Shown: positions 2,484 through 17,931 of the stretch, piece after piece | Numbering within the stretch: the stretch's first letter is position 1 | Layout of the letters: each line of letters opens with the position of its first letter | Source of the DNA: Leisingera sp. M658 | Lineage (GTDB): Bacteria > Pseudomonadota > Alphaproteobacteria > Rhodobacterales > Rhodobacteraceae | Direction of reading: 5' to 3' | Length of the DNA stretch: 64,000 bases | NCBI RefSeq assembly: GCF_025144145.1 | Contig: NZ_CP083546.1 | Coordinates: 3,550,501 to 3,614,500, forward strand | Notes under the pieces: model-generated | Databases searched by the model: none | What the model was told of the DNA's origin: nothing | The model's input: only the letters and a program-made list of their open reading frames with translations | Made by a program: the position numbers and the translations under genes

Positions 2484-2515
2484 TGAAACAAAACAGCCGC
2501 CCCGGAGGGCGGCTG
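2484..2515 (-). terminator. Rho-independent terminator after the small lipoprotein gene
   Basis: A perfect 9-bp stem (2494-2502 with 2507-2515, loop CGGA) is followed on the minus strand by TTTTGTTT. It ends transcription from the OmpA-like and lipoprotein pair before phoH. Confidence 0.85.
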
Positions 2516-2539
2516 AAAAGCAATTGGCACAAAGTCTGC

Positions 2540-2845
2540 TTACAGCGCGTCGGCGAAGGTAGAGCCAGCCTTGAACGGGCCGGTGGCAGTGTTACGCGGC
2601 AGGTTGCTGTTGCAGACCGGCTTGCCGTCAGGTGTGCGGCGCAGGTCGGCGTAGCCTTCGAGACCGTCGTCGATGATCCAGTGTTCGCAGCCCTGCGGGT
2701 CGACCCAGATGCCGGCGGTCATATTCGACAGATGGCTGGAAGAACCATCGCCGGCATGCTGGTCACGGGTTTTGTCCAGGGTTTCGGAACAGGCCGGGAC
2801 CAGGGCCGCGGCGGCGAGGAGCAGAAGTGTTTTACGCATCAGCAT
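2540..2845 (-). CDS. Small lipoprotein with a WVDPxGCEHW motif
   Basis: A predicted 101-residue secreted lipoprotein of unknown role. Residues 3-20 form a basic and hydrophobic signal ending in LVPAC, a plausible lipobox with the lipidated Cys near residue 19. The mature part carries WVDPQGCEHW, DDGLEG and TPDGKPVC. The same motif occurs in the OmpA-like protein just upstream, so the two share a small domain with two Cys. The start at 2845 is chosen because GGAG lies 9 bases upstream; a second ATG at 2839 is possible. The open frame extends further upstream inside the ompA-like gene, but that part is shadow. A strong terminator follows. Confidence 0.8.
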   Translation of the reverse strand: MLMRKTLLLLAAAALVPACSETLDKTRDQHAGDGSSSHLSNMTAGIWVDPQGCEHWIIDDGLEGYADLRRTPDGKPVCNSNLPRNTATGPFKAGSTFADAL

Positions 2846-2858
2846 GGTTTTTGTCTCC

Positions 2859-3434
2859 TCAGCGCAGGCAATAGATTTCGACACGGCGGTTTTGCGCCAT
2901 ATTTCCGGCACTGGTGTTGGGCACCCGCGGGTCGCGTTCACCATAGGCGCGCACATCATTGATCCGCGCACCCACCGAACGGCCCGCCTGAGCCACGGCA
3001 TGGGCACGGCGCTCGGACAGGCGGATATTATATTCATCCGATGCCCGGCTGTCGGTATGGCCCGCCACGATGAAGGCACGAGCGCCATTGGATTTCGCCT
3101 GCTGGAAAAATTCCCCCAGGCGCTTGCGGCCTGCGGCATTGATGTAGTGTTTGTCCGTGGCAAAAAACTGGTCTGTCGGCATCACGCCGCAAATGTTGCC
3201 GCGGCGGCAGACCGGCTTGCCATCCGGGGTCACATGCGGGGACATGAAGCCTTCGGCGCCGTCATCCATCACCCAGTGTTCGCAGCCGTCCGGGTCAACC
3301 CAGATGGTGGGCACATAACGTTCGCCCTTGATGGTCCGCTGAGTTTGCGCGCTGGCAGGCGCGGCAGCTATGCTGAGCGCAGCCGCAGCAGCGGCGGCCA
3401 GCGCAACCGCTTTATTAAATTTGAGTATCAACAC
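2859..3434 (-). CDS. OmpA-family outer-membrane/peptidoglycan-associated protein
   Basis: A 191-residue exported protein. Residues 1-30 are a typical signal peptide with a likely cut after PASA. Residues about 43-76 hold WVDPDGCEHW, DDGAEG and TPDGKPVC. The C-terminal half is an OmpA-like peptidoglycan-binding domain with FIVAGHTDSRASDEYN, LSERRAHAV and NRRVEIYC. It probably tethers the outer membrane to the cell wall. The lipoprotein gene follows after 13 bp with its own ribosome binding site, so the two are likely co-transcribed. The intergenic region upstream (3435-3712) is AT-richer and should contain the promoter, though no clear -35/-10 pair was identified. Confidence 0.9.
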   Translation of the reverse strand: MLILKFNKAVALAAAAAAALSIAAAPASAQTQRTIKGERYVPTIWVDPDGCEHWVMDDGAEGFMSPHVTPDGKPVCRRGNICGVMPTDQFFATDKHYINAAGRKRLGEFFQQAKSNGARAFIVAGHTDSRASDEYNIRLSERRAHAVAQAGRSVGARINDVRAYGERDPRVPNTSAGNMAQNRRVEIYCLR

Positions 3435-3663
3435 AACCAGATTTCCTTCACCTAAGTTCCCCCAGCGCGCTTGCCGCTTACGTGCCCACCGCTCAGGCCA
3501 TAAGAGTCAAACTACCTGAAATTGATGCAGTATACCTGCTAAATTAATTGTTATTCCGCGCAGATTAATCGCATTTTCCGGGACACTCAAAGCACCCAAA
3601 TAATATTGTCGCCGGAACCGATGCAATCGGGACTCACCTGCGCAATTCGAAAAACGGAGATCG

Positions 3664-3685
3664 AGCCGCTCTGAAAAAAGCGGCT
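3664..3685 (-). terminator. Weak hairpin downstream of miaB
   Basis: AGCCGCT (3664-3670) pairs with AGCGGCT (3679-3685) around an A-rich loop, 28 bp after the miaB stop. No clear T-run follows on the minus strand, so its role as a terminator is tentative. Confidence 0.35.
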
Positions 3686-3712
3686 GGAAAGATTCGCGCT
3701 GTGGCGGGAGTA

Positions 3713-5035
3713 TTAGCCGATCAATTCCCCGGCCAGGGAATTTGCACCAGAGGAAATGATGCGCACCCGGGCCAAGTCCCCCGGCACGCGGTTGCAATCA
3801 GCGACATGAACGGCGTGGAGGTAGTCGGATTTACCAACCATCTGGCCCGGCCGGCGGCCCGGCTTTTCAAACAGAACGCCCACTTCGCGGCCCACCATGC
3901 TGTCCTGCACCTCGCGCTGCTGCCGGGTCAGCAGAGCCTGCAGGCGCTGCAGCCGGTCATCCGCCGCGGCCGGATCGACCTGGGCGCGTTCGGCTGCAGG
4001 GGTGCCGGGGCGGGTTGAATATTTGAAGGAATAGGCAGTGCCGTATTTCACCTCTTCCACCAGGTCCATGGTGGCCTGGAAATCTTCCTCGGTCTCTTCC
4101 GGGAAGCCGACGATGAAGTCGCCGGAAATCAGGATATCGGGCCGTGCGGCGCGGATGCGCTCAATCAGGCGGAGGTAGCTTTCGGCGGTGTGGGCACGGT
4201 TCATCCGCTTCAGGATCTTGTCCGATCCCGCCTGCACCGGCAGATGCAGATAAGGCATCAGCTTGGCGCAGGTGCCATGCGCCTCGATCAGGTCGTCCTG
4301 CATGTCGTTGGGATGCGACGTGGTGAAGCGGATGCGCTCCAGCCCGTCGACCTTGTCCAACTCCCAGATCAGTTGTGCCAGGGTCAGGTCGCCATTGGGC
4401 CCGGCCCCGTGATAGGCATTCACATTCTGGCCCAGAAGGGTGATTTCGCGCACGCCGCGCTCTACCAGATCGCGGGCTTCGGTCAGGATACGGTCAGCGG
4501 GGCGCGAAACTTCGGCGCCGCGGGTATAGGGCACCACGCAGAAAGCGCAGAATTTGTCGCAGCCTTCCTGCACCGTCAGAAACGCGGTGGGGCCGCGCTT
4601 GGCCTTGGGGCGGTCTTTCAGCTTCTCAAACTTGTCTTCCTCGGGGAAATCGGTGTCCAGCACCTTTTCCCCTTCGCGCGTCTTGGCTTCCATTTCGGGC
4701 AGGCGGTGATAGCTTTGCGGGCCGACCACCAGGTCCACCAGCGGCTGGCGGCGCATGATCTCTTCGCCCTCGGCCTGGGCGACACAGCCGGCGACACCGA
4801 TCTTCAGATCCGGCTTTTCTGCCTTCAGCCCTTTGAAACGGCCCAGCTCGGAATAGACTTTCTCGGCGGCCTTTTCCCGGATGTGACAGGTATTGAGCAG
4901 GATCATGTCGGCGTCATCTGCCGATTTGGTCTCGACATAGCCTTCACCGCCCAGCGCTTCGGCCATGCGTTCGCTGTCATAGACATTCATCTGACAGCCA
5001 TAGGTCTTGATAAACAGCTTCTTTGGGGCGCTCAT
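3713..5035 (-). CDS. miaB: tRNA-2-methylthio-N6-dimethylallyladenosine synthase MiaB
   Basis: A 440-residue radical-SAM methylthiotransferase that converts i6A37 to ms2i6A37 in tRNAs reading UNN codons. The N-terminal UPF0004 domain starts [17 protein letters not shown]. The radical-SAM CxxxCxxC motif is CDKFCAFC within [22 protein letters not shown] domain closes the protein ([13 protein letters not shown]). The frame is open to 5104, but the Met at 5035 ([13 protein letters not shown]) matches family starts, and the extension [11 protein letters not shown] has no family character. It stands alone on the minus strand, divergent from the gene at 5164. Confidence 0.97.
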
Positions 5036-5163
5036 GCGGGTCAGCCTTCCAGCCAAAGTGGGTAAACAGCGGCCTGCCTTACAGACAAATGCCGCCGCTT
5101 GCAATGAGGCGGGATTTACCCGATTTTGGCCGCAATGGCCAGAAAGGCAAAAGGCAGACGGGC

Positions 5164-6033
5164 ATGATGTATTCTTCGCTGCAGGATTTCCTGAAAGAGG
5201 GCAAGGCGTTGCTGGTCAAAGGACCGGTTGCGCTGGTCTTTGTCGAGGATGAGGTGGAGATCGCCACCACCCTGCGCCACCACCTGCAAAGCGGTTTCAA
5301 GGCCGTTGTGGCGCTGATGCCGGATGCGTTTGACCTGCCGCAGGATGTGCGCGCTAAGGTGCACCGGGTGCCGTTTGACTGCGCCCTCGAAGGCGCGCTG
5401 ACAGAGGCCGTCAATGCGGTGATCGCTGCGGCGCAACCCGGTTGCTGGCTTTATTACTGCTACAATGCGGAATATCTGTTCTACCCGTTCTGCGAGACCC
5501 GCAGCGTTGGTGAAATGCTGACCTTCCATACCGAAGAGCGGCGGGATGCGGTGCTCAGCTATGTGATCGACCTTTATGCCGGCGATCTGGAGGCCTGCCC
5601 CGGCGCTGTCTCGCTGGAGGCGGCCTATCTCGACAAATCCGGTTACTATGCCCAGTCGCGCAAGGACCCCGAAACCGGCCATCCGCGCGAACGGCAGCTG
5701 GACTTTTTTGGCGGGGTGCGCTGGCGGTTCGAAGAACATATCCCGGAGAAGAGCCGTAAAATCGACCGGATTTCACTGTTCAGGGCCAAACCGGGACTGG
5801 TGCTGCAGCAGGATCACACTTTCAACGACCAGGAATACAACACCTATGCCTGCCCCTGGCATCACAACCTGACCGCTGCGGTCTGTTCTTTCCGCACCGC
5901 CAAGGCGCTGAAGCGCAATCCCGGCTCCACCTTCGACATTGAAACCTTCCGGTGGCACAACTCCGCGCCGTTTGAATGGCATTCGCGTCAACTATTGGAT
6001 TTGGGGCTGATGGAGCCGGGGCAGTGGTTTTGA
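5164..6033 (+). CDS. Conserved hypothetical protein, possibly glycosyltransferase-like
   Basis: A 289-residue protein of unknown function. There is no signal peptide or membrane segment. The N-terminal third ([32 protein letters not shown]) resembles an alpha/beta unit that handles a position or nucleotide-sugar, and the middle has conspicuous aromatic and His/Glu runs ([33 protein letters not shown]). I recall similar rhodobacteral proteins annotated as family 2 glycosyltransferases but cannot confirm this. The start at the first of two adjacent ATGs is chosen because the upstream frame overlaps the miaB promoter region. It is divergent from miaB and convergent with the MocR gene. Confidence 0.75.
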
Positions 6034-6094
6034 ACCCAGCCGGCAACGGCTGAAGAAATACATGACCGGGGGGCCGCTTTTTGGCTGCCCGCCC

Positions 6095-7429
6095 CTACCC
6101 TGCCGTCGCAGCCTGGACCGCTTGGCGCACTGTCTCCAGCGTGCCGCGCAGCTCTGCCATCGGCAAGCCGCCAAACGCCAATCTCAGGGCCTGCGGAGCT
6201 GCGGCAGCTGTTGCAAAAGCCTCCGCGCCGGACACCGAGATGCCCTGATCTTTCAAACGCGTCACGATGGGTTGCGCACGTGCGCCTTTTTCAAGCGGCA
6301 GCCAGGCAAAGCCCGCGTTGCGATGCGAAATGACCGAAGTCTCGCCAAAGACCTCCCGGCACAGCGATTGGCGCGCGGCGCCATCCTGCCTGCGGGTTTC
6401 CTCGGATTTTTTCAGTGTCCCGTCTTCGATCCATCCCGTGACCAACGCAGTGATCAACGCGGGCGTGTTCCAGGTCGTCGCGCGGATCGCTTCCAGCAAA
6501 GCCGCGGTGCGGTCAGCGGGCGGGACCGCATATCCCAGCCGCAAACCCGTTGCGAGGCTTTTGGAGAAACCGCCGATATGCACCGTCCGGCCGGGTGCCA
6601 GCGACAGGAAAGCGGGCGGCGGATCCGGTTCCAAAAACGCATAGGCCGCGTCCTCGATGATAAGAAGGCTGTGCTGCTGGGCCACGTCAAGCAAGCGCAG
6701 ACGTGTGGTTTCATCCATGACGGTTCCCAGCGGGCTTTGGACCGTTGGCATCAGATAGACAGCAGTTATGTTCCGCATGCGGCATTGGCGGTCCAGATCA
6801 TCCGGGTTCATGACACCGTTCTGTGTCCCGACCGGGGCAAGTTCCAGACCGTTCAAGGCGGCAGCGGATTTGAACCCTGGATATGTAAGCGCATCAGCAG
6901 CGATCACATCGCCGGGCTGAAACAGCCCCAAACAAGTGATCGCCAGCCCGTGCTGGCTGCCTGAGGTGACCAGCAAGTGCTCGGGGTCAATCCGGCCCAA
7001 AGACCGTCCGAGGCTTTCGGCGATGATCCGGCGTTCGTGCATGCGGCCGCCGTGGGGCTGATAGCGCAGCATCGCATCCAGATCGCCGGCCGCCGCAAGC
7101 CGCCGCAATCCGGCCCGCAAAATGTCTGCGTCCGCGGGTCCGCCTGGCATATTGAAAACCAGATCCGCGATCCCCTCAGCCGCTGTTTGATGCACCCCCA
7201 GTGTCATGGGCAGGCCAGGATCGCGCACAAAGGTGCCGCGCCCGGCTTCGCCGCAGACAAGCCCCCTGCGCTCCAGTTCCTTATAAACCCGCGTTGCGGT
7301 TGCCAGCGCGACGCCGGATTTCTCCGCAAAGGCCCGGTGCGGCGGCAGTCTGGAGCCCGGTGCGAGTTTGCCCTCGCGGATTGCGTTGGCGAGCATGTCG
7401 GCCAGGCGGATGTATCTGGATTTGCTCAT
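6095..7429 (-). CDS. MocR/PdxR-type GntR regulator with aminotransferase domain
   Basis: A 444-residue fusion regulator. Residues about 5-70 form a GntR winged helix (IREGKLAPGSRLPPHRAFAE, ATATRVYKELERRGL). Residues about 95-440 are a fold-type I PLP domain, with the Schiff-base lysine in GGFSKSLATGLRLGY. MocR proteins sense PLP or amino-acid derivatives and usually control a divergent gene. Here that gene is an MFS transporter starting at 7520, 90 bp away, so the transporter is the probable target. Length and both domains are complete. Confidence 0.92.
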   Translation of the reverse strand: MSKSRYIRLADMLANAIREGKLAPGSRLPPHRAFAEKSGVALATATRVYKELERRGLVCGEAGRGTFVRDPGLPMTLGVHQTAAEGIADLVFNMPGGPADADILRAGLRRLAAAGDLDAMLRYQPHGGRMHERRIIAESLGRSLGRIDPEHLLVTSGSQHGLAITCLGLFQPGDVIAADALTYPGFKSAAALNGLELAPVGTQNGVMNPDDLDRQCRMRNITAVYLMPTVQSPLGTVMDETTRLRLLDVAQQHSLLIIEDAAYAFLEPDPPPAFLSLAPGRTVHIGGFSKSLATGLRLGYAVPPADRTAALLEAIRATTWNTPALITALVTGWIEDGTLKKSEETRRQDGAARQSLCREVFGETSVISHRNAGFAWLPLEKGARAQPIVTRLKDQGISVSGAEAFATAAAAPQALRLAFGGLPMAELRGTLETVRQAVQAATAG

Positions 7430-7446
7430 ATGCCCACCGTCATTAG

Positions 7447-7463
7447 TACAATAGAAAAATTGT
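7447..7463. promoter_or_regulatory. Inverted repeat between mocR and the MFS gene
   Basis: ACAAT (7448-7452) and ATTGT (7459-7463) form an inverted repeat in the divergent intergenic region, beside three GTCAT repeats (within 7439-7493). TACAAT at 7447 could also be a -10 box. It is a candidate operator for the MocR regulator, by position only. Confidence 0.35.
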
Positions 7464-7519
7464 CATACGCCGGACCGTCATGGCATTGCGGAGGCAAGTC
7501 AACCTGTGAGGTCCGCCCA

Positions 7520-8698
7520 ATGCTCCGATTTCTGTCAGCTGCTTTGCTTGCCGCAATACTGTTTACTGTGACATTTGCCGTGAATCTTCAGGCGCCGCTG
7601 TATGATGCCTATGCCGCCCAGAACGAGGCCGGCGCCACCGCAGTTACAATTGCCTTCGCCGCTTATGCCGGCGGGCTGATGCCGACGCTGCTGCTGCTTG
7701 GCGGGCTGTCGGACCGGACCGGGCGGCGTATCCCTCTTGCTCTGGCCCTGGTCCTTGGCGCGGTTGCGACAGCGGTGCTGGTACAGTTCCCAAACTGGGC
7801 AAGCCTGGTCACGGCGCGGATCTTGCTGGGTATCGGGACCGGGCTGGCGACCACTGCGGGCACGGCGTATATGGCCGAAATCCTGGGCGCCGACCGGGAA
7901 CGCACTGCGGCCTTGATTGTGACATCGGCAACATCGCTTGGTTTCGGCGGCGGCGCTTTGGCAACCGGGCTTAGCCTTGGCCTGCAAGGGCCGACATTCC
8001 TGCCATACAGCTACGCGGCACTTCTTGCAGCTGCGCCGGTTCTGGCCGCAGCCGCATTGGCCCTGCCCAAGGCGGACAGTCCGAAACCCGTCACACCGCT
8101 GCGGCTGCCGGTCTTTCCGTCCGGCACCTGGGTGTTCGGTGCGGCAATGGCGCTGGCCTGGTCGACAACCGGCATGACCATTGCCGTGGTGCCGTTGCAA
8201 TTGGCCGCCAATGGGCTTGGCGGCTGGACCGGGCTTGTCATCTTTCTGGCGATCTTCGCAGGGTTTCTCTGCCAGCCCGTCGCCCGGAGCATGTCCAACG
8301 CCCGGGCACTGGCACTCGGGTTTGTGCTGATCCCGCTGGGCTTTCTCGTGCTCCTGGCCGGTGTCTGGCTGACATCACTGGTGCTGGTCCTTGCCGGAAC
8401 CTGCATCACCAGCGCGGCAAGCTATGGCTTTACCTATCTTGCCTCCCTGGCGGAGGTGTCACTGCGCGCACCTGACGACAGGGCGCGGGCAACGGCGGGC
8501 CTGTTTGTCTATGCCTACTGCGGGTTTTCGCTGCCGGTCATTGCCAGCGGAGCACTGGCCGACACCTTTGGACTGCTGGCCGCAATGGCCCTTTTTGCTG
8601 CCGCGCAAATATCCGTTACAGGGGTCATCGTCCTGTTCTGGAGGAAAAGCTTGCATCCGGCCCGGTCAAGAACGGAACAGGGCTTGGGCATTGTTTGA
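7520..8698 (+). CDS. MFS transporter
   Basis: A 392-residue major facilitator with about 12 hydrophobic segments. Motif A is GGLSDRTGRR after TM2, and TM5 has the antiporter-like GFGGGALATG. The N-terminus MLRFLSAALLAAILFTVTFA is TM1. The frame is open much further upstream (6977) opposite mocR, but only the part from ATG 7520 has protein character. Substrate is unknown; drug or metabolite efflux is common for this type. It is probably controlled by the divergent MocR regulator. It converges on the end of the kinase/GTPase operon 26 bp downstream. Confidence 0.9.
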   Translation: MLRFLSAALLAAILFTVTFAVNLQAPLYDAYAAQNEAGATAVTIAFAAYAGGLMPTLLLLGGLSDRTGRRIPLALALVLGAVATAVLVQFPNWASLVTARILLGIGTGLATTAGTAYMAEILGADRERTAALIVTSATSLGFGGGALATGLSLGLQGPTFLPYSYAALLAAAPVLAAAALALPKADSPKPVTPLRLPVFPSGTWVFGAAMALAWSTTGMTIAVVPLQLAANGLGGWTGLVIFLAIFAGFLCQPVARSMSNARALALGFVLIPLGFLVLLAGVWLTSLVLVLAGTCITSAASYGFTYLASLAEVSLRAPDDRARATAGLFVYAYCGFSLPVIASGALADTFGLLAAMALFAAAQISVTGVIVLFWRKSLHPARSRTEQGLGIV

Positions 8699-8724: not shown

Positions 8725-9522
8725 TCAAGAGCCGGGAAAAATTTCCGTCCACATACGCAGCACCGCATCTGCCGCGTCGGCACGCAGGGTCAAAAGCAGC
8801 TGTTCGCCGCAAACCGAAACCACGATGATGCATCTCTGAGGTGAGACCGGCAGCAGCAGGCATTCCAGCTTGGGCGCAGGCATTCGGGCCGCGGACGGAA
8901 AGGCGCCCTGGGCCGCGAGGACGGTGCGGACTGCGTCCAACTGGCAAAGCAGTTCCTCCGGCCCGCCGCTGCCGGACAGATTTCCACCCCGCCCGCATGA
9001 CATCCAAGCCTCTGCCTGAGGGGTAGCACGAGCGTGGAACCGGTCCAGCGGGCTGCTGTTCCCGGTTGCGCCCATAGCGTCGCTCAGCATCTTGGCGGTA
9101 CAGCTGCCCGCGCCTTCGGTGGCCTTGCAAGGACGGCGTTTGATTGTGAAGCCTGCGCCATTGGCAACGGCGTCCAGAGTGCGCAGCCGCGCGGCAAAGA
9201 TCCGGGCGGCTGCATCCGGATCCTCTGCCCCGTCCGCGGGATCTGCGGAGCGGCACAGGGTCAGCCCCGTCAGCCTGCGTTGCGCAATGGTGAGCACAGC
9301 GGCAGACTGCTGGCCGACACAAATGGTCAGTTCCCGGGGCAATACGGTTTCGCTGATTTCGCGCAGCACAGCAACGGCGAGCGGTTCCTGCCCGGCAGCA
9401 GCCTGCTGCACGCGTGCACGGATTGCGGCTGGTGTTTCAGCCAGCCGGTTCAACGCCTGCTGCAGCGCGCCACCTGCCCCGGCCGGCTGCGGCAAGAGAT
9501 GAGCAGCCGCGTCTGCCATCAT
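8725..9522 (-). CDS. Unrecognised protein at the end of the kinase/GTPase operon
   Basis: A 265-residue soluble protein that I do not recognise. It starts with ATG ATG at 9522, overlapping the stop of the roadblock-like gene by 4 bp (ATGA), which indicates translational coupling. Visible parts are an Ala-rich helical N-terminus, a beta-rich segment LTICVGQQSAAVLTIAQRR (about 66-84) and a C-terminal strand-rich block with RCIIVVSVCGEQLLLTLR (about 230-247). The alternation of hydrophobic strands resembles roadblock/longin-like folds, which is inference. It has no signal peptide or membrane helix. As last gene of the operon it is likely part of the same pathway. Confidence 0.7.
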   Translation of the reverse strand: MMADAAAHLLPQPAGAGGALQQALNRLAETPAAIRARVQQAAAGQEPLAVAVLREISETVLPRELTICVGQQSAAVLTIAQRRLTGLTLCRSADPADGAEDPDAAARIFAARLRTLDAVANGAGFTIKRRPCKATEGAGSCTAKMLSDAMGATGNSSPLDRFHARATPQAEAWMSCGRGGNLSGSGGPEELLCQLDAVRTVLAAQGAFPSAARMPAPKLECLLLPVSPQRCIIVVSVCGEQLLLTLRADAADAVLRMWTEIFPGS

Positions 9523-9899
9523 GCCCCCCCGGCCATTGCTGCCAGCAGGCTCCGCGCCGGGGCAGCAAGCCGCCCGGCGCTTGCCGCATCTGAGCAGACA
9601 CACAGCACCGCGTCACCCGATCCATCTGCGGCGCGGATGAAAACACGTGCTTCGCCCGGGGTCAGAATCAGGACATCATCGGCTGCCGCTGCGGATTGCG
9701 GATCTCCGGCTGCCACAGCGGCATCAAGCAGCAAGAACCCCAGCCGGGCCTGCTGGCAGAGGCCGTCAAGATACTCCTGCGGATGGCTGGCGGCACTGCT
9801 GCTGCGCAGAACAATGCTGGCGCCGAGATCACCAAAGGCGGCCAAACGGCAGCCCTTGGCGGTCTGACGCAGCGCATCAAGCTGCAGGGAAAGCGTCAC
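9519..9899 (-). CDS. Small roadblock/LC7-like protein
   Basis: A 126-residue protein starting with GTG at 9899. The pattern fits a roadblock/LC7 fold: an N-terminal helix (LSLQLDALRQTAKG), a strand with LAAFGDLGASIVLR, a long helix, then EARVFIRAADGSGDAVLCVCSD and a final helix AAPARSLLAAM. Bacterial roadblock proteins such as MglB act as regulators or GAPs of small GTPases, and three GTPase genes lie directly upstream. The assignment rests on pattern only, with no diagnostic motif. The stop overlaps the next start (ATGA). A 65-bp gap separates it from GTPase C. Confidence 0.6.
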   Translation of the reverse strand: MTLSLQLDALRQTAKGCRLAAFGDLGASIVLRSSSAASHPQEYLDGLCQQARLGFLLLDAAVAAGDPQSAAAADDVLILTPGEARVFIRAADGSGDAVLCVCSDAASAGRLAAPARSLLAAMAGGA

Positions 9900-9964
9900 A
9901 GGATACCCCTGTTACCGGCAAGGGCCGCTGTGCATTCTGCTTCGGGACGTTTGGATATCATGCG

Positions 9965-10924
9965 TTACTCACCAGTTGGATGGGTTTCGGGCCGGGACCG
10001 GGCAGGCCGCTTGCTGCGCTTGACCGGGGTGACCCGGCGCGGTGTCACACGGCCGTCGGCATCCGCGCAGGCAGGGCTTTCTTGCAATTGCGGCTGTTCA
10101 CCGCTCTCGCGCCTGCCGCCAAAGTCCAGCACGTCAGCCCCTAAAGGCTGCTCCGTTTGCGGATTTTGTGCAGAAGCCGCAGGATTGGATTGTGCAGGCG
10201 CAACGCGGTTTGGCTGCGCCCAAGTCACAAGCATATCCACCAGATACTCAATGAAACTGTCAGCGCCGCTGGTCTTCCAAACTTCCATGTCCTCACCCGC
10301 GGCCAGCGCCTGACTTAGCGACAGCGGAAAGATTGCGCCGAAGGCAACGCCGGTTTCCTTCCTGACACGCCGGACCACACGGTCCTGATCACGGCTGTTC
10401 CGCAGCTTGTCGAAATGCGTGATCAGCAATGTACTCGGGCCTTCAAACCGGTGTGAAATCTCCTCCCATACGGCGGCTTCGGACTGACGCCAGGCCTGGG
10501 TGGCATGGGTGCACCAGATCACACCGTCAACTTCGGGCAGCAGGTTTTGCCAGACACTGGACGGCATGTTGGGATCCGAAATGCCCGGCATATCAATGAG
10601 ATCGCACAGCTCCAGCGCCTCTGCCGGGAGGGTCAGGCGGATCAGCGCCGTGGTGTCCATCGGCACATTGGCAAGGTCCTCGGGCCGCAGCGGTGTTTTG
10701 CTGCCGTCGGTGGCGGTGATGCTGGCCGCCTCAGGCCCGTGCGATATCCAGACCGGCGGCAACCGGGTGGCGGTCACGCGGGTCGGCAGCGGCTGTCGCC
10801 CCACAAGCAGGTTGGTGAGAGTGCTTTTGCCGGCGCTGAACTCGCCCATCAGTGCCAGGCGCGGCTTGCGCTGTGGTACAGCAGCCGGGAAGACGGGAGT
10901 GTGCATGGCGGATTCCTGTGTCAT
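9965..10924 (-). CDS. Dynamin-like P-loop GTPase C
   Basis: A 319-residue GTPase. Walker A is GEFSAGKST (27-35), a switch-I Thr follows near residue 51, G3 is DMPG (111-114) and the base-recognition element is probably THFDK (169-173), a variant of NKxD. The G domain fills about residues 20-245. The last 75 residues are basic, Pro/Gln-rich and probably disordered (TPVKRSKRPARSRP), possibly a membrane or protein contact. Its ATG overlaps the stop of the large GTPase gene by 4 bp. GEFSAGKST is typical of dynamin-superfamily and YeeP-like GTPases. The partner or membrane is unknown. Confidence 0.85.
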   Translation of the reverse strand: MTQESAMHTPVFPAAVPQRKPRLALMGEFSAGKSTLTNLLVGRQPLPTRVTATRLPPVWISHGPEAASITATDGSKTPLRPEDLANVPMDTTALIRLTLPAEALELCDLIDMPGISDPNMPSSVWQNLLPEVDGVIWCTHATQAWRQSEAAVWEEISHRFEGPSTLLITHFDKLRNSRDQDRVVRRVRKETGVAFGAIFPLSLSQALAAGEDMEVWKTSGADSFIEYLVDMLVTWAQPNRVAPAQSNPAASAQNPQTEQPLGADVLDFGGRRESGEQPQLQESPACADADGRVTPRRVTPVKRSKRPARSRPETHPTGE

Positions 10925-12966
10925 TCGGTGAAGCTCCTGAGCGTTTGCAAGGCGTCGTTGGCCTGTGTCCGGCGGCTGTCATCGGCAATCAGCCCCTGAA
11001 TATCATCGCCGCAGCGGCTGTGGTCTGCGATTTCCATCAGGATGTCGCGCTGGTCGTCGAAAAAGCCCTGCAGCCTGGCAAGGACAGCGGTGCCCGCATC
11101 TGCTGTCTGCACGAATTTAAGCTGGGTCATGAAATCTTCGGTCTCGCCCGCGATCAGACTGCGGAAACGTTTGGCAAAAGCCTGATAACCGCGGGTGCGG
11201 CGCCACCAGGCAGCCCACCAGCTGTCATTGAAATCCAATGCTATGGCCTGCCCCAGCGCAATCGGAGAGCTGGCCGGGGGCACCTCGGGAATTGACAGCT
11301 GAATACCCTCGACCGCTGCGCCGAAACCGTCATACAGCAGCTCCGCGACGTCCTGCACCGCGGCCTTGTAGCGGGCCTGGGCGGCAGCCTGCAGGCGGCT
11401 GGTCATCACCGAATAGGCCGAGCGCAACAGCATCCGCAGCCCGGCGGGATCATATTCCCAGTGGCAGTCCTCGCCCCATTTCTCCAGGTGCTCGATCAGC
11501 GCGTGGGTGGCGCGGTCGGTAAAGGTGGCATGGGCCCGGTCGGCGCGGTCGCGGAAGGCGTCGAGGATTTGCGCGGTCTCGGCCTCCAGTGCGTCCAGAT
11601 GGGATTTGCAGATATTCTCAAACGCGGCGCGGGTGTCGTGGAGACCGGCCTGCGCGCCGCCCTCGCCCTGCACCCTGACCGCATCTGCCGCCTGCTGGCC
11701 GGTGGCAGCGGTCACGGCAGACCCGGCAACGCGGGCCAGCAGCGGTGCGCCGAGGTCGGTCACGATCCGATCAGCCACCACCCGGTTCAGTGCAGGCAGC
11801 CCGGACAGCTCCCAAACCATGTTCTGGGCCGACAGATCCGCATGGGAACTGTTGACCGAGGCTTCGGCCCAATTGAGCAGCGCGGCGGAACTTGCCTTAT
11901 CCATGTCCTCCAACCCTCCGGTCAGCACCTTGTTGGCCCAATAGGCACTGCCAAAGAGGACGGTTGCGTCCTCGGGCCCGTGATGACTGTCCAGTGTCTG
12001 GCGGACGCTGGCCTCGATCTCGGGGATCTGGATGGCGGGGGCGGCGAGTTCGTCGATGCGGTTGACGAAGATCACCACCTCACGCGATTTGAGGTTGGAG
12101 AGCATCCGGATCAGCCCCATGTCGACCGAGGTCAGCGCCTGGCCGGCAGACAGCACCACCACGCAAAGGCGGCTGTCACGGATTGCCTGGATGGTGATCT
12201 GCTCGCGCATCATGAAGGTGTCGTTGACGCCGGGCGTGTCGCGCAGGCACAGGCGGTGGGGCACGCTTTGGCAATTCAGGTACAGATCGGCCGCGCGGGT
12301 GATATCGGCAAAGCGCCCCTGTTCGCCGACGCCGCCCTCCTCCTCGTCAAAGTCATCGCCCAGGCAAATGTAGCGTTCGATCAGGTTCTTGTCGAAATAG
12401 CCGTATTCATGTTTCTGCCCCATCAGCAGTTCGAATTTACGGCCCAACCGCTGGCGCGAGCGTTCCCGCATCTCTTCGATCTGGGTACGGATTTTTTGCA
12501 GTTCGCTGCTGGCGCCGGCACGGCCCGCCATTTCACCGATGCGCCCGCCCTTGGTCAGCAGCCGGTCCCATTCCGCCTCGGTCATGAACTGGAAACAGGC
12601 CTTGTTCTCAATCCGGGCATCCCCCGGTGTCAGGTGCAAGGAGGTGACGACCGAGGTCCAGGGGTTCACATCCGACGGCAGCAGGTCAGCCCAGCCCGCC
12701 ATCGCATTGACCAGGGATGTCTTGCCCGACTTCACCTGTCCCAGCAGCGTGACACTGGGTTCAAAACTGCTGAGTTCCGACTGCAGTCGCGACAGGCTGC
12801 GCTGGACGCGCATCCCCGAAACTGCGGACAGAGCAGACAGAGCGGTTTCAAGCCGCTGCGATTTGCGGGCAAAGTCCAAGAGCGGTTCCAGCCCCGCATT
12901 CAGATTGGTCGGACGCGCGGAGGCGTGGATGTCGGTGGCACTCTCGATCTGAGTTTCCATGTTCAT
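10921..12966 (-). CDS. Large dynamin-family GTPase B
   Basis: A 681-residue protein with an N-terminal helical stretch (25-70), a G domain with Walker A GQVKSGKTS (76-84), G3 DTPG (243-246) and G4 NRID (302-305), and a long helical C-terminal half (about 400-681) typical of the dynamin stalk. Between Walker A and G3 is an unusual insertion of about 100 residues with a helix rich in Arg/Glu (KIRTQIEEMRERSRQRLGRK) and an acidic patch (DDFDEEEGG). No clear transmembrane helix is seen, so membrane action would be peripheral. It overlaps GTPase C by 4 bp and follows GTPase A after an 88-bp gap. Confidence 0.88.
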   Translation of the reverse strand: MNMETQIESATDIHASARPTNLNAGLEPLLDFARKSQRLETALSALSAVSGMRVQRSLSRLQSELSSFEPSVTLLGQVKSGKTSLVNAMAGWADLLPSDVNPWTSVVTSLHLTPGDARIENKACFQFMTEAEWDRLLTKGGRIGEMAGRAGASSELQKIRTQIEEMRERSRQRLGRKFELLMGQKHEYGYFDKNLIERYICLGDDFDEEEGGVGEQGRFADITRAADLYLNCQSVPHRLCLRDTPGVNDTFMMREQITIQAIRDSRLCVVVLSAGQALTSVDMGLIRMLSNLKSREVVIFVNRIDELAAPAIQIPEIEASVRQTLDSHHGPEDATVLFGSAYWANKVLTGGLEDMDKASSAALLNWAEASVNSSHADLSAQNMVWELSGLPALNRVVADRIVTDLGAPLLARVAGSAVTAATGQQAADAVRVQGEGGAQAGLHDTRAAFENICKSHLDALEAETAQILDAFRDRADRAHATFTDRATHALIEHLEKWGEDCHWEYDPAGLRMLLRSAYSVMTSRLQAAAQARYKAAVQDVAELLYDGFGAAVEGIQLSIPEVPPASSPIALGQAIALDFNDSWWAAWWRRTRGYQAFAKRFRSLIAGETEDFMTQLKFVQTADAGTAVLARLQGFFDDQRDILMEIADHSRCGDDIQGLIADDSRRTQANDALQTLRSFTE

Positions 12967-13054
12967 GGCTGAACCTTGCTGTGTCTTGCTTTGGCGTGTG
13001 TGTCAGCCCTGCCGGACCGCGAGGCGGCGGCGGCAAGGGAATTGCGGTTGGTCA

Positions 13055-14248
13055 TCACCCCGGGATGTCTTCGGTCAGCTCCTTTTTCAGCTGTATCAGC
13101 AGCGTCACCGCATCGATGGCCGCGTCTTCATCCTGCTCCAGTTGGCAGAGCATCAGCATTTCCTCTCCGTCCTGGGCTGCTTCGCGGGCGGCCTCCACTG
13201 CTGTGCTGCCTGGCATCGCTTCCAATGTCTGCGACAAGCCGCGGATCATCTCCATGCATTGCGCCAGTACCGGACCGGCCTGGGGGCCGCCTGCGGCTTC
13301 GGCCTCTGTCAGCATTTCCTCGGCCCGGGCTTGCATCTGGTCCAATGCGCTGCTGAGGCCGGCAGCAGCGGTCAGCGGCGGGGCCGCAGCAGTAACTGCA
13401 GACTGCCGGCCGGCAGGGTCAGCTGTTTCACCGCCAAACTGGCGGATCAGCAATTCGGCTTGATCCACATCCGAGGCACGGCCCGTTTCAACCTGCCGCA
13501 TCACGCCGTCCGCCAATTGTTTGCCGCCGCTGGAGCGCCAAAGATCATGTGCCGGTGCGGGTTCTGCCTGGGCCGTCAGCCCCTGGATCGCGGCGACAGG
13601 ATAGACGCCCAAAAACTCCTCAGCGGCAACTGGTTCCACCGTCTTGATCAACCCATCCAAGGTTCCCCGCATGATCTGCCGGTCGGCCATTGTCAGCACC
13701 AGGAAGCTGTGATCCTTGGTGCTGTCAGGAACGTCGGCCCACAGGGCCTGCTCCGTGTCCGGAAACGCCTGGCTGCACCACAGGATAATATCCGCCGCGC
13801 CAGAGGCCTGCTGCAGCAGGTTCTGCTGGCGGGCCTGCGGGCCTGCAAGCGGCAGTTCCGTATAACTGTGGGTGCGCAGCCGCAAATCTGGCAGAAACTG
13901 GCGGATCCTCAGGGTGCCCGCCGGCATGTCAAGGTCTGCCAGAACACCCGCCTGTTGCAGGCGCTCGCCCTTGGCGGTTTCAAAAACCGCGCATTCCTGA
14001 TCGCCGTGGCAAATGTCAATGACGACGCTGCCCGCGTTGCGGCCAATGACCACCCGCCCCAGCATCATATCTATCAGCGCCGACTTGCCGGAACCGGTGA
14101 CGCCGGTGACGATGATCTGCACCGGCTGGCGCAACCGGCGCAGCAGCTGGCTGCCCCAGCCTGAAAACTCTGCCGGCAGCTGCCCTGTGCTGAGCGTGTG
14201 CTCCAGCCGGCCTGCCAGCGGGCTGATATCTGTCTGAAGAAGGCTCAA
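13055..14248 (-). CDS. P-loop GTPase A
   Basis: A protein of 397 residues if translation starts at the TTG at 14248, which overlaps the phosphatase stop as TTGA. An upstream GTG at 14296 in the same frame would add 16 residues. Walker A is GVTGSGKS (49-56 from the TTG). G3 is degenerate (ELPLAG instead of DxxG) and LTMADR may replace NKxD. The segment DIILWCSQAFPDTEQALW parallels GVIWCTHATQAWRQSEAA of GTPase C, so A and C are likely related. The C-terminal third is an Ala/Glu-rich helical region. With the weak G3 it may bind nucleotide without normal hydrolysis. Confidence 0.75.
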   Translation of the reverse strand: MSLLQTDISPLAGRLEHTLSTGQLPAEFSGWGSQLLRRLRQPVQIIVTGVTGSGKSALIDMMLGRVVIGRNAGSVVIDICHGDQECAVFETAKGERLQQAGVLADLDMPAGTLRIRQFLPDLRLRTHSYTELPLAGPQARQQNLLQQASGAADIILWCSQAFPDTEQALWADVPDSTKDHSFLVLTMADRQIMRGTLDGLIKTVEPVAAEEFLGVYPVAAIQGLTAQAEPAPAHDLWRSSGGKQLADGVMRQVETGRASDVDQAELLIRQFGGETADPAGRQSAVTAAAPPLTAAAGLSSALDQMQARAEEMLTEAEAAGGPQAGPVLAQCMEMIRGLSQTLEAMPGSTAVEAAREAAQDGEEMLMLCQLEQDEDAAIDAVTLLIQLKKELTEDIPG

Positions 14249-15228
14249 GCCGATGCATCCGTTTTGTTGCGGCGGGCGGCGGGTGCAGAATCCCACGTCG
14301 CCGAAGCCAGGAGGGTGATCACCCGGCGGCCGCTGCGCTGACGCGGCGGCGCGGGCGGCTGTTCAGCCGGCGGCGGGTCCAGAACCGGCGCGTCCATCGG
14401 CAGCGCTGATGGCTGTGCCTGGGCAGGAAGAGCGGCCTGCGGATCAATGGGTTTGATCACGCAGAACGCGGCATTGTCCTGTTCGGCGGCATTCAGCACC
14501 TCCAGCTGCCGCATCAGCGCTGCGCCGATACGGGCGCTGGAACTGCCGCATTCTGCAGCGAGGACGGCGGCGATCTCTTCCTCCTCCAGGAATTGCAGCC
14601 CGTCGCTGGCGGCCAGCACGATATCGCCATGCTGCAGCCTGACGGGTGTGCTGCGGCAGTCGATGCGGGGGATGTCCGCCCCGGTCAGCACCGAAGTCAC
14701 GCAATGCCGGTCCGGATGGCTGGCGGCCTCAGCCGGGTCCATGCGGCCCTGGGCGGCCAGCCTGTCGATCTCTGCTGCCATCGAATGATCGGCGTTGAGC
14801 CGGATCAGCGCGCCGTCACGGAACAGGTAGAGCGGCGAGTCACCGACCGAGATCCAGTAAAGCCGGTCGCTGAACAGCACCGGAGCCAGCAGCGTCGCGC
14901 CCATTCCGCGGGCCTGAGGCTGATGGCTGGCGTATTCGCCAAGGCAGGCATTGGCGCCGCTGGCAGCCTGCTGCAGCACTGCGCCGATCGACTGTTCCAG
15001 CGCACCCGGGTCGTCCGTGCGCAGCTTCAGCTCGCTGAACACTTCTGTGACCACAATTTTACTGGCGACATCTCCGGCGGCATGGCCGCCCATGCCATCG
15101 GCCAGCACCGCAAAACCGGTGCCGGTGCCGGCCAGGAAATCGGCGGCAAGCGCGTCCTCCTGGCGCTCGCGGCGGCCCTTGCTGATGGCCGTCGCGGCAT
15201 CATATTCGAACTCAGCGGTGCACAGCAT
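14245..15228 (-). CDS. PP2C-type protein phosphatase
   Basis: A 327-residue PPM/PP2C phosphatase. Metal and catalytic motifs are in order: RERQED (20-25), LADGMGGHAAG (42-52), GMGATLL, ISVGDSPLYLFRDG and LAASDGL. The start at 15228 (MLCTAEFEYDAA) lies inside the end of the FHA gene (17-bp overlap); the frame is open further upstream only as shadow. The C-terminal 70 residues are Pro/Ala-rich and end in a basic tail, with no membrane helix. It should reverse phosphorylation set by the kinase two genes upstream, possibly on the FHA protein or the GTPases. Confidence 0.93.
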   Translation of the reverse strand: MLCTAEFEYDAATAISKGRRERQEDALAADFLAGTGTGFAVLADGMGGHAAGDVASKIVVTEVFSELKLRTDDPGALEQSIGAVLQQAASGANACLGEYASHQPQARGMGATLLAPVLFSDRLYWISVGDSPLYLFRDGALIRLNADHSMAAEIDRLAAQGRMDPAEAASHPDRHCVTSVLTGADIPRIDCRSTPVRLQHGDIVLAASDGLQFLEEEEIAAVLAAECGSSSARIGAALMRQLEVLNAAEQDNAAFCVIKPIDPQAALPAQAQPSALPMDAPVLDPPPAEQPPAPPRQRSGRRVITLLASATWDSAPAARRNKTDASA

Positions 15229-16567
15229 GGTCGGTATCGCTGGGTTGCGGCTGGTCCCAGCCGAAATCGGCGCCGCACAGCGGCACAAAGCGCAGGGTGG
15301 TCTCGCCAATGCGGATCACATCGCCTGCCGACAGGGTTTCGGTGCTGAGCACAGGGCGGTTGTTGCGGCGCACCAGGTTCGCCTTTCCGCCATGACCGAC
15401 ATAGAAAGCCTTTTGTTCCGGGTCATAGGCGATGGCAGCGTGGTTGTCGCGCGAGATGCTGTTGTCACCGAAGTCCAGCCTAACAGTCTGGTCGGCGCCG
15501 CGGCCGATCACAGTGACGCCGCTGAACAAAGTAAAGGCAGCACCACGGCCCGGCCCCTGCACGATGGCAAGCCAGCCGACGGGGAAACGGGTGTAACCGG
15601 GCGCAGTGTCTTTCTGGCTGCGGGCAAAGGGATCGCTGTCTTCGGCTTGAGCGGGGCTGAAACCCAGCAGGCGGGTCTTGACCCGTCCCGCCCGGCTGGC
15701 GCCGCGCCCCATCGACGGTGCCGGCACATCAATTGACGCGTCTGCCGGGCTGTCCATGGAAACCACGGGTTGCGAAGCTGCGGGCGCCGGTTGCGGGGCG
15801 GAAACAGCAGCTGCCTGCGGAGCAGGAGCAGCCGGCTGGGTGGGACCGGCCAGGATACTGGCAGGCTGTGCTTCGACGGCGCGCGGGCTGGTTTCTTGCT
15901 GTTGCTGAGGCTGATTTGCTGGGGCAAAGGCTGCAGAAGGAGTCTCCTCAACATCTGGCGGGCTGCTTTGCTGCTGCACGCCGGCCTGGGTTCGCTTGAA
16001 GACCCTGTAGGAATCGCTGCTTTCGACTGCTGGTTCAGCCAGTTCCGGGCTGCGGAAACTATCCTCCCTGCCAGCGCGCGCAGGCGCTTCGGCGCCAGGT
16101 GCGAAGGGATCATCTGATGCGGCGCCTGCGAGGCTGGCAAGGGTTCCGGTATCCCTAGGGTCAGCAGCGGCCGCTGGCACTGCCGCGGTTTCTTGCTCGC
16201 GGGCGAAAAAGGCCGCGATGGCCGGGTCCTGCGGCTGCTCTTCAGCAAAGCCTGGCAAGCCTTCGCCTTCTGCCAGCGCGTCTTCAGGCCCTGCGTCATA
16301 AGTCCAGCCGTCCTCCGCCGGCTTGCCGGCCAGCGGAGCAGCAGTCTCTGCCCGGGATGCCGCCTGAGCAGTTTCCGGCGCCGTATCCAGCAGGAAACCG
16401 CGGTCAAGGCTGAGAGGCGGACGGGCAGCCCCGGTATTGGCGACGTCAGGCGCAACCGCATCCTGCACAGGCGCCTGGGCCGGGTCTGCTTCTGGCGCCG
16501 CATGACCGTCCAGGCGGACCCTCTCTCGCTTTTCGCCAATGATATCCTTGATGAATTTCATACTCAT
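15212..16567 (-). CDS. FHA-domain protein with long disordered linker
   Basis: A 451-residue protein. Residues 1-330 are low-complexity Ala/Pro/Gln/Glu-rich and probably disordered, except a short basic conserved-looking element SRAGRVKTRLLGFSP (291-305). The FHA domain spans about 332-430 with the phosphothreonine-binding residues GR (355-356), SxSRDNH (370-376) and N397. FHA domains bind pThr, so this is the likely reader between the kinase (5 bp upstream) and the GTPases. Thr299 in the basic element is a possible phosphorylation site, which is inference. No signal peptide or membrane segment is seen. Confidence 0.92.
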   Translation of the reverse strand: MSMKFIKDIIGEKRERVRLDGHAAPEADPAQAPVQDAVAPDVANTGAARPPLSLDRGFLLDTAPETAQAASRAETAAPLAGKPAEDGWTYDAGPEDALAEGEGLPGFAEEQPQDPAIAAFFAREQETAAVPAAAADPRDTGTLASLAGAASDDPFAPGAEAPARAGREDSFRSPELAEPAVESSDSYRVFKRTQAGVQQQSSPPDVEETPSAAFAPANQPQQQQETSPRAVEAQPASILAGPTQPAAPAPQAAAVSAPQPAPAASQPVVSMDSPADASIDVPAPSMGRGASRAGRVKTRLLGFSPAQAEDSDPFARSQKDTAPGYTRFPVGWLAIVQGPGRGAAFTLFSGVTVIGRGADQTVRLDFGDNSISRDNHAAIAYDPEQKAFYVGHGGKANLVRRNNRPVLSTETLSAGDVIRIGETTLRFVPLCGADFGWDQPQPSDTDHAVHR

Positions 16568-16572
16568 TCCCT

Positions 16573-17931
16573 TCAGTTCTTAACCGTTTCCGGGTTGCTG
16601 CGCTGGCGCCCGAAGATCTTACGCAGCCGGCCCGCGAAACCGGGCTTTTCCCGGCGCAGTTCCAGAACCGGATCTGCCGGGAGGTCCGCGGCAGATACGG
16701 CGGCGGGCAGCCGTTCCACGGCGGGTGCGTTTTTCTTCCGCCGGGGGATAGCGTCCTGTTCCTTCAGCCAGGCTTCCACGTCGCTGACCGGCTCACCGAA
16801 GATATTCACCAGCTGGCGAAGCGGCTTGGAGGGTTTGCTGGCAGGCTGGGTCAGCTTTTGCCTGACCGAACGCGGTTGCCCAGGTGTCAGGCCGCCATTG
16901 GCCGTCGCGACCAGCTCGGCGATGACAGCATCCAGGTTGGCATTGTCTTCAGGCGCTGGCGCAACCGTGCCGGGCAGTTGAGTGTCTATTTCCGCAGCGT
17001 TCTGTGTTTCGCAATCGTTTTCGGCCAGCGCGCCCGCCCAGTCATGCGCCGATTGGAACCGTTCAGCCGGAAGTACGGACATCGCCATATCCACAGTTGC
17101 CAGCACCGCAGCATCCGCATTCCACGGTCTGCCCAGCAGCGGATTGCACGGGTCCGGGTCACCTGCCATCACTGCGCTCAGCCGCTGCTGGCTGCTTGCG
17201 GGCACGTCGCCGGTAATCAGGTAATACAGCGTGGCGCCCAGCGCATAGAGGTCACAGGCCGGACGCTGAGGCAGCTCGGGCTTGTACAGCTCATGCGCGG
17301 AGTATCCATCCTTGACCGCCAGCAGCACCGGCAGCGCGGTATCGTCATTGGGAAGACTGCCGCAGGCGGCCCCGAAATCGATCAGCGTGAGGCTTCCATC
17401 CTTGCCAAGGATGAAGTTGTCCGGCGAGATATCGCGGTGCAATATACCTTGCCCGTGCAGGCAATCGAGCGCTTCCAGCGCCTGGCAGAGAATGTGCCGC
17501 AGAAGCGGCCCGGTCAGCCGTTCAGGCTGGTCCTCACGCACGGTCAGCAAGTCCAGACCGTCGACGAATTCCATCGCGATATAGGCGGTTTGATTTTCCT
17601 TGAACACCTGATGCACGCCGACGATGCCGGAATGCCGGGCGCGGGCCAGCAGTTGCGCCTCGCGCAGAAAATTGCGCAAGACATTACGGCAGGATTTGGC
17701 GTGCTCTTCCGTGTTGGGTTCGACGTCCGTGCCACTGCGGCGGCAAATGCCTGCCGGAAAGCACTCTTTGATGACAACGCGGCGTTCCAGACTGTCGCGG
17801 GCCAGATAGGTGATCCCAAAGCCACCGCTGAGCAGCGGCTGCTCGATCTGGTACTGACCTTGCAGCAGCTTGAAGCCGCAGGGCAATTCACAGGCGAGAG
17901 CCGGGTCAGCAGAAGATGTGTCGTGAGGCAC
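16573..17931 (-). CDS. Ser/Thr protein kinase (Hanks type)
   Basis: A 452-residue soluble kinase when started at the GTG at 17931, preceded by AAGGA nine bases upstream. The frame is open from a TTG at 18033. The glycine loop is SGGFGITYLA (35-44), the catalytic Lys is in VVIKECFP (55), the helix-C Glu in FLREAQLL (91), the catalytic loop is HRDISPDN (165-172) and the metal motif is DFG (185-187). The kinase domain ends near residue 310. The tail is basic and Pro-rich (PRRKKNAP, RRKKN) with no transmembrane helix, unlike PknB-type receptors. It is the first gene of an eight-gene operon. Confidence 0.93.
   Translation of the reverse strand: MPHDTSSADPALACELPCGFKLLQGQYQIEQPLLSGGFGITYLARDSLERRVVIKECFPAGICRRSGTDVEPNTEEHAKSCRNVLRNFLREAQLLARARHSGIVGVHQVFKENQTAYIAMEFVDGLDLLTVREDQPERLTGPLLRHILCQALEALDCLHGQGILHRDISPDNFILGKDGSLTLIDFGAACGSLPNDDTALPVLLAVKDGYSAHELYKPELPQRPACDLYALGATLYYLITGDVPASSQQRLSAVMAGDPDPCNPLLGRPWNADAAVLATVDMAMSVLPAERFQSAHDWAGALAENDCETQNAAEIDTQLPGTVAPAPEDNANLDAVIAELVATANGGLTPGQPRSVRQKLTQPASKPSKPLRQLVNIFGEPVSDVEAWLKEQDAIPRRKKNAPAVERLPAAVSAADLPADPVLELRREKPGFAGRLRKIFGRQRSNPETVKN

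Follow-up and report, generated by a model that had tools for sequence, protein, structure and literature searches.

A conserved eight-gene operon of Leisingera and related Rhodobacterales brings together genes for a dynamin-like GTPase pair, a putative threonine-phosphorylation circuit and roadblock-type proteins

We analyzed a stretch of 64,000 nucleotides (hereafter the window) from Leisingera sp. M658 (contig NZ_CP083546.1, positions 3,550,501 to 3,614,500), which is part of a 4.3-Mb contig in a genome of 4.9 Mb whose closest named relatives are Leisingera. The subject of this study is an eight-gene operon on the minus strand at positions 8725-17931 of the window, transcribed in the order K, FHA, PP2C, G1, DYN, G2, RB, and X8; four of its gene junctions overlap (by 17, 4, 4, and 4 bp) and three leave gaps (5, 88, and 65 bp). 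An initial annotation, made from the sequence alone, had reported eight genes on one strand with overlaps of 4-17 bp or small gaps, and all eight were confirmed at their place. The first three genes encode a Hanks-type serine/threonine kinase (K, 16573-17931, 452 residues, Pkinase E-value (E) 1.4e-27), an FHA protein (15212-16567, 451 residues, Pfam FHA 7e-7), and a PP2C-type protein phosphatase (14245-15228, 327 residues, PP2C_2 1e-12). Next come G1, a diverged P-loop NTPase with weak Pfam P-loop matches and cross-matches to G2 (13055-14248, 397 residues), the dynamin-like GTPase DYN (10921-12966, 681 residues, Dynamin_N 4e-13), and the short dynamin-family GTPase G2 (9965-10924, 319 residues, Dynamin_N 1.6e-10). 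The last two, identified by predicted structure and Foldseek, are RB, a predicted roadblock/LC7-fold protein (9519-9899, 126 residues), and X8 (8725-9522, 265 residues), which has a C-terminal roadblock-like domain and an N-terminal alpha/beta domain. Pfam cut-offs were passed by K, FHA, PP2C, DYN, and G2, whereas RB and X8 matched no Pfam or NCBIfam family at an E of 1 or lower. None of the eight proteins has a 19-residue stretch of hydropathy of at least 1.7, the highest value being 1.57 in DYN. K starts at a GTG with an upstream AAGGA, its frame being open further to a TTG at 18033, and a promoter and terminator scan gave matches no commoner than in shuffled sequence.

The kinase, FHA protein, and phosphatase had initially been read as a circuit with a soluble kinase; all three exceed their Pfam cut-offs, and the K of the window has no predicted membrane span by hydropathy. 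Motifs were counted by pattern across 87 loci in which the eight genes were called consecutively (some operons being present twice), of which 78 were left after removal of near-identical DYN. The kinase DFG occurs in 87/87 loci and HRD in 86/87; ten kinases escaped the first HRD pattern, nine of them having HRD followed by V and one (L131) having none found. The kinase tail carries a DIFGxPIxDxxAWxxEQ-type motif in 70/87 loci and has a basic end. The phosphatase, which matched NCBIfam Stp1 at 3.7e-40 (below the family cut-off), has DGMGGH in 85/87 loci, and an FHA motif of the S-x-S-R-x-x-H type was found in 78/87. Alignment of the FHA proteins from the 78 loci revealed a fixed N-terminus, MKFI[RK]DII (MKFIKDII in the window), followed by a long unconserved linker, the motif GRVKTRLLGF, and, about 50 residues further on, the C-terminal FHA domain. 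The conserved N-terminus (MSMKFIKDIIGEKR, 16526-16567, minus strand, matched by pattern in 75/87 loci) is a candidate membrane or partner anchor. RVKTRLLGF (15659-15685, minus strand) is a candidate phospho-threonine site present in 83/87 loci, as KTRLLGF in 81 and RTRLLGF in 2 (72 and 2 of the 78 non-redundant loci). A threonine with leucine at +3 is suited to FHA recognition, and, as judged from sequence, the placement of KTRLLGF is as expected for a phospho-threonine self-switch, which makes it a candidate phosphosite.

With Dynamin_N scores of 50.1 bits for DYN and 41.7 bits for G2 against a cut-off of 27, two of the proteins contain a dynamin-type GTPase domain. Their genes adjoin each other, with a 4-bp overlap in the window, and they are neighbours in all 64 fully called loci of the synteny sample described below. 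Against the PDB, the DYN profile matched 5owv (1.3e-8), which we take to be a Campylobacter dynamin-like pair, and the bacterial dynamin-like protein 2j68 (3.8e-8), presumably from Nostoc. Near its C-terminus DYN has a tryptophan-rich patch (SWWAAWWRRTRGY, 11185-11223, minus strand), a candidate membrane contact, in which W583, W584, and W588 are invariant in 18 aligned orthologues; the pattern WWxx[WF]W occurs in DYN of 87/87 loci. The Walker A motif of G2 was likewise present in 87/87. G1 reached no Pfam cut-off, showing weak P-loop matches and tblastn cross-matches with G2 at about 22-33% identity. Because DxPG is mostly (79/87 loci) and Walker A sometimes (7 loci) missing from it by pattern, G1 was classified as a diverged NTPase. 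Thus, of the three P-loop GTPases originally proposed, DYN and G2 were retained as GTPases and G1 was not.

The predicted structure of RB (AlphaFold, predicted local distance difference test (pLDDT) 94.3) found its best Foldseek match in the Streptomyces roadblock protein 3kye (E 2.1e-5, query-based template-modelling score (TMq) 0.77). The 50 matches listed were roadblock, MglB/MglC, Ragulator (MP1-p14 included), or Rag chains; among them, 5x6u and 5x6v, whose titles are silent on this point, presumably belong to the same roadblock-type group. The sequence profile of RB gave nothing better than E 0.62 against the PDB. On the strength of its model RB has the roadblock fold, so the roadblock-like protein of the initial annotation was right at the fold level. 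The model of X8 (pLDDT 88.4, predicted template-modelling score 0.68) has, in its C-terminal half, a helix, two strands, a helix, three strands, and a helix, which is the roadblock order. Its best match was MglB 6h5b (E 6.8e-4, TMq 0.27), and four matches reached E 0.001 or better, namely MglB twice, Ragulator, and human Fuzzy-Inturned (root-mean-square deviation 16.9). Since TMq lay between 0.20 and 0.30 among the matches listed, the match covers one domain at most, and the model suggests that X8 is probably a second roadblock-domain protein. By analogy with MglB and Ragulator, RB and X8 may serve as GTPase-activating proteins or as scaffolds.

Named genomes gave 505 relatives, and conservation of the operon was assessed in the best 80 of these, by title Rhodobacterales or unplaced bacteria. 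The full set of eight, in order and on one strand, was recovered by gene calling in 64/80 loci, including one (L079) whose kinase is truncated by a contig end yet recognisable, and by tblastn in three more (L101, L144, L154). Contig ends cut 11 loci (L080, L086, L112, L114, L122, L129, L135, L145, L150, L152, L155). The same eight genes in the same order are found in 67 of the 69 named loci not so cut, a figure that applies to close relatives because the 80 loci are the closest of the 505; the two departures are L116 and L148. The operon flanks vary from clade to clade while the gene order holds. The eight-gene set is a real conserved unit, shared by many genera of marine bacteria, beyond chance arrangement.

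Co-occurrence was analyzed in 149 genomes of the family, 36 of which contain DYN. Within the genus DYN is present in 19 of 21 genomes, 18 of them with a full or near full-length copy and one with a C-terminal fragment only. The X8 profile matched 30/149 genomes, corresponding to 30/36 with DYN versus 0/113 without (Fisher 8e-26); this count is a lower bound, as at least one X8 (genome G058, locus L057) was missed and found by a dedicated X8 profile. The FHA-linker profile matched 29 genomes, 27/36 with DYN versus 2/113 without (p 9e-20). These two are G011, where the match is weak, and G146 (83% complete), in which K-FHA-PP2C stand alone, the rest absent, with a contig end roughly 2 kb away. 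When the eight genes were compared by their pairwise protein distances across the 78 non-redundant loci, without species-tree control, the correlations ranged from 0.62 to 0.92. The synteny search across genomes that the initial annotation had called for has thus shown the order conserved, and its proposal of a distinct system is upheld by the 67/69 uncut loci and by the distribution of X8. At E 1e-10 the DYN profile matched in 2/289 genomes of the class and 4/299 of the phylum (own genome included), all from its own family; among the matches listed, no genome had more than 4 or 3 candidates scored, respectively, so distant DYN relatives elsewhere may be missed. A phage origin was rejected, as a search of 50,697 phage records gave no DYN match at E 1e-3.

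More distant loci revealed how the parts of the operon come apart and recombine. In L058-L060 and L063-L071, DYN-G2 occurs without adjoining kinase, FHA, and PP2C genes; G1, RB, or X8 is retained in four of these cassette-less loci (L058, L059, L060, L069), and some loci carry two DYN-G2 pairs. Four genomes (G003, G063, G116, G137) combine a cassette-less DYN locus with a kinase operon or cassette elsewhere in the genome. Specifically, G003 (L060, L159, L173) has DYN-G2-DYN-G1 near 0.3 Mb, RB-X8 near 3.378 Mb, and K-FHA-PP2C-G1 near 3.39 Mb, 12 kb beyond RB-X8, with every part retained. In G116 a single protein of 615 residues (L063:4247-6094) combines three parts: a GTPase with Dynamin_N (6e-11), a phosphatase of the DSP type (Tc-R-P 2e-21), and an RB domain, which the RB profile matches at 59 bits; a plasmid DNA search with the middle of this fusion gene gave no match. 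Longer kinase variants with a hydrophobic span were found in five loci (L076:19391-23784, L075:20689-25870, L062:14306-19768, L057:5643-7820, L042:2295-5195), the span being weak in L062 and L075, and the C-terminal region received no Pfam assignment in the four variants that were scanned. Genes annotated as substrate-binding proteins adjoin the cassette in L076 and L075, one of them with a LysM domain (2.7e-7). Beside the cassette of L062 stands a similar substrate-binding-type gene, as judged by eye. We infer from these arrangements that the GTPase/roadblock core may be the common part and the phosphorylation cassette an add-on, with an input signal that would differ between lineages. Separately, ABC/AAA-type ATPase genes adjoin X8 in two loci that have no kinase cassette, L069 (L069:8086-9303, the end of which weakly matches a DSP phosphatase, 18.2 bits against a cut-off of 27) and L059 (L059:14553-15785).

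Plasmid copies of the operon occur in Leisingera, Ruegeria, and Rhodobacter; the whole operon is carried by the Leisingera plasmids NZ_CP041163.1 (L073) and NZ_CP083557.1 (L074), one record being 32.8 kb long. At the same chromosomal site a congener (G155) has a decayed remnant (L158:6424-7667) with fragments of DYN, G2, RB, and X8 only, next to 6.6 kb of flanking DNA that is 89% identical, which indicates that the operon can be lost.

We consider it moderately probable that the operon encodes a pair of dynamins gated by phospho-threonine and controlled by roadblock proteins, with remodelling of the cell membrane as its output. The parts would form one machine, in which the GTPase pair DYN and G2, together with G1, would act on the cell membrane, RB and X8 would contact the GTPases and hold and time them, and reversible threonine phosphorylation through K, FHA, and PP2C would act as the switch. 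In the proposed cycle, K may write its phosphate mark on the threonine of KTRLLGF. The FHA domain would then bind its own or a neighbour's phospho-threonine, by which a roadblock/GTPase complex would be released or captured, and DYN-G2, using GTP, would then assemble on the inner membrane by way of the tryptophan patch and the N-terminal helix of the FHA protein, until PP2C resets the cycle. Phosphorylation-gated membrane remodelling had been among the roles suggested by the initial annotation; it fits the dynamin pair, the threonine motif of the FHA protein, and the variants, while the remodelling output itself is what we infer.

Several observations weigh against this reading. Both departures from the conserved order do so: RB was not found and X8 is partial in L116, and L148 (Marivita geojedonensis, 1204-7881) is reduced to K-FHA-PP2C-DYN-G2; G1, RB, and X8 were not found there. 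Nine genomes with DYN lack a match to the FHA profile (G004, G015, G019, G022, G051, G054, G059, G074, G098), which implies that the phosphorylation switch is not obligatory; in G022 and G098 the operon lies at a contig end. KTRLLGF or RTRLLGF is missing from L052, L056, L125, and L127, and the conserved threonine motif could be a binding motif instead of a phosphosite. The structural match of X8 is modest, making its assignment less firm than that of RB, and a sequence relationship between RB and X8 was rejected because no similarity was detectable. The G116 protein is the sole such fusion in the scan of called proteins. Finally, co-occurrence inside one family can partly reflect block transfer, since all counts come from that family; the split genome G003 and the fusion protein are less exposed to this objection.

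A search of the full-text literature, judged by title or abstract start among the matches listed and with subscription papers and preprints mostly outside its scope, found no description of this gene set. The module was placed with the bacterial dynamin-like pairs (Campylobacter Cj-DLP1/2, LeoABC, Nostoc BDLP) because both of the defining features tested, a Dynamin_N domain over the Pfam cut-off in two proteins and the adjacency of their genes, were found here; other families failed on a tested feature or stayed undecided. In the accessible part of PMC6104087, most bacterial dynamin genes are described as paired within operons, and no kinase, FHA, PP2C, or roadblock partners are named; the present operon differs further in its short G2 and its third P-loop protein. 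The polarity module MglA/MglB/MglC of Myxococcus is similar in that roadblock proteins are encoded with GTPases, and the models of RB and X8 match MglB. However, its GTPases are Ras-like, whereas here they are of the dynamin family and accompanied by two unlike roadblock proteins and a Hanks kinase/FHA/PP2C circuit. The OdhI/GarA switches of Actinobacteria combine an N-terminal threonine motif with a C-terminal FHA domain and have oxoglutarate dehydrogenase as their partner. Our FHA protein shares the C-terminal domain and a conserved threonine in the linker N-terminal to it, but it is longer, has a different motif and dynamin partners, and matches NCBIfam OdhI far below the cut-off (8e-6, 25.7 bits versus 200). 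Pfam holds models for DO-GTPase and GAP1, and neither matched any of the eight proteins at E up to 1. The paper closest in theme among those listed describes GTPase-centric conflict systems (Kaur et al. 2020, PMC7159879), one sub-type of which has GTPases encoded with a kinase and a PP2C; its main text has neither "dynamin" nor "roadblock".

Among ten flanking frames scanned in the window, a transporter, a radical-SAM protein, and a glycosyltransferase-like protein were recognisable downstream, and alcohol-dehydrogenase-type and LysR-type proteins upstream. Elsewhere in the window, the reading frames at 27457-28494 and 56022-56531 are presumably insertion-sequence-like, as judged by eye. Across relatives, 147 flanking proteins were analyzed, a random draw from 200 from which proteins of fewer than 80 or more than 900 residues were left out. 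A response-regulator cluster had 20 members among the flank genes, spread over 17 loci in which two genomes are counted twice, and a LuxI-like synthase was among the two nearest flank genes in eight loci, all of them from Roseovarius, and further out by eye in L100, L107, L126, and L137, that of L100 being confirmed by Pfam. LuxI-like synthases, a membrane histidine kinase, and response regulators of about 370 residues recur on either side and strand of the operon (L100:579-4311, L103:14700-19710, L096:14360-17893, L137:780-4430, L137:14284-15390, L126:1-4864). Orphan luxI genes that have a histidine kinase gene lying upstream are described for roseobacters (PMC3824088). These recurrent neighbours, together with the substrate-binding and LysM genes of the kinase variants, would suit an output module for cell-cell signals or envelope stress, in which the same machine would bring about vesicle release or a change of surface or shape on quorum-type or cell-wall signals. 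The sensor region of the histidine kinase matched in 10/36 genomes with DYN versus 9/113 without (p 0.004), and the seven closest matches (at least 53% identity) were all in genomes with DYN, five of them within 10 kb of the operon. However, the 53% cut was chosen after inspection of the list, the query itself was taken from G137, which is among the five close cases, and the next matches, G135 (52%) and G031 (49%), both lack DYN. The copy in the window has none of the quorum-type neighbours and its genome has no match to the sensor region, and the nearest-flank LuxI cluster is restricted to Roseovarius. We regard this signal-output role as rather unlikely.

Anti-phage defence, the other role raised in the initial annotation, was not supported, and we consider it improbable. 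The operon would in this case be a phosphorylation-armed relative of the Eleos/LeoABC dynamins, or would protect against lysis in the manner of DynA. Its presence is patchy (36/149 family genomes), with plasmid copies and a decayed remnant, and PADLOC models matched DYN (LeoA 1.1e-8, 32.7 bits; LeoBC 8e-4, 16.6 bits; both partial, PADLOC thresholds not shown), G2 (LeoA 4e-4), and K (the kinase models mad6 and PD-T4-6, with E as low as 3e-40). However, kinase-model matches are expected of any Hanks kinase, and Eleos is a system of two genes, with which the operon shares dynamin-family GTPases at the level of a weak partial match, whereas here there are eight genes with a phospho-circuit. In favour of defence, Bacillus subtilis DynA is reported to confer phage resistance (PMC8844932). 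At E 1e-15, defence models in the 147 flanking proteins were limited to mad3 (four members) and ZorC, SngC, DpdF, and BrxHI (one each); on this flank content, for which no control set was scanned, a defence island was rejected. The absence of DYN from the phage records and the full or near full-length dynamin in 18/21 genus genomes likewise argue against defence.

A loose gene island, in which separate modules travel together on plasmids and form no joint machine, would account for the plasmid copies in three genera and for the modules that stand separate in relatives. It is very improbable, as co-occurrence survives splitting in G003, one fusion protein joins the parts, and the order is kept while the flanks change.

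Control of type VI secretion by threonine phosphorylation would rest on the PpkA/Fha/PppA pathway, in which a kinase, an FHA reader, and a PP2C are encoded together (PMC3953482), and would have to act at a distance. In agreement with the initial annotation, no secretion genes were seen beside the operon: no type VI family was among 25 listed of the 98 Pfam families in the flanking proteins. VipB lies at least 157 kb from DYN where both share a contig in the family genomes; elsewhere they are on different contigs, whose order is unresolvable in drafts. The own genome has two VipB matches on contig 3 (C3:135844-154920), a different contig from that of the operon, and contig 3 bears a separate FHA gene, a stronger FHA match than the operon's, 3.5 kb from one of them. 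VipB is somewhat commoner with the kinase operon (10/25 genomes versus 25/124 others, p 0.04; 13/36 with DYN versus 22/113 without, p 0.07), the 25 genomes having been picked by hand with G098 (contig-cut) out and G144 (contig starting at FHA) in. No VipB match was found in 15 of these 25 genomes. Type VI control is the least probable explanation and was rejected as the main reading on the flanks, the VipB distance, and the separate FHA gene, the weak positive association notwithstanding.

Compared with the initial annotation, the analysis adds the probable roadblock domain of X8, the motif in the FHA linker, the fusion of GTPase, phosphatase, and roadblock domains, the kinase variants with a predicted membrane span, and the recurrent quorum-type neighbours. 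To our knowledge, what turns on bacterial dynamin-like proteins is largely unknown. If the operon encodes a phospho-threonine-gated dynamin pair, as we propose, then one conserved operon supplies candidate dynamin regulators at every level, namely a kinase, a phosphatase, a phospho-reader whose threonine motif hardly varies, and two roadblock-like proteins. It also makes a direct test possible, in which one threonine is mutated and dynamin assembly followed, in culturable marine bacteria. Roadblock proteins are known as neighbours of Ras-like GTPases from Myxococcus and of Rag GTPases from animals, and this operon places them beside dynamins. More tentatively, it is possible that the operon is a dedicated module, itself portable, whose phospho-threonine switch loads dynamins via a roadblock platform, resembling Ragulator or MglB, to cut, fuse, or shed membrane when required, and which some lineages have wired to an acyl-homoserine-lactone or cell-wall sensor. 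Such a roadblock-platform module would, if true, be a new class of bacterial machine beyond another dynamin pair, and a counterpart of regulated membrane trafficking.

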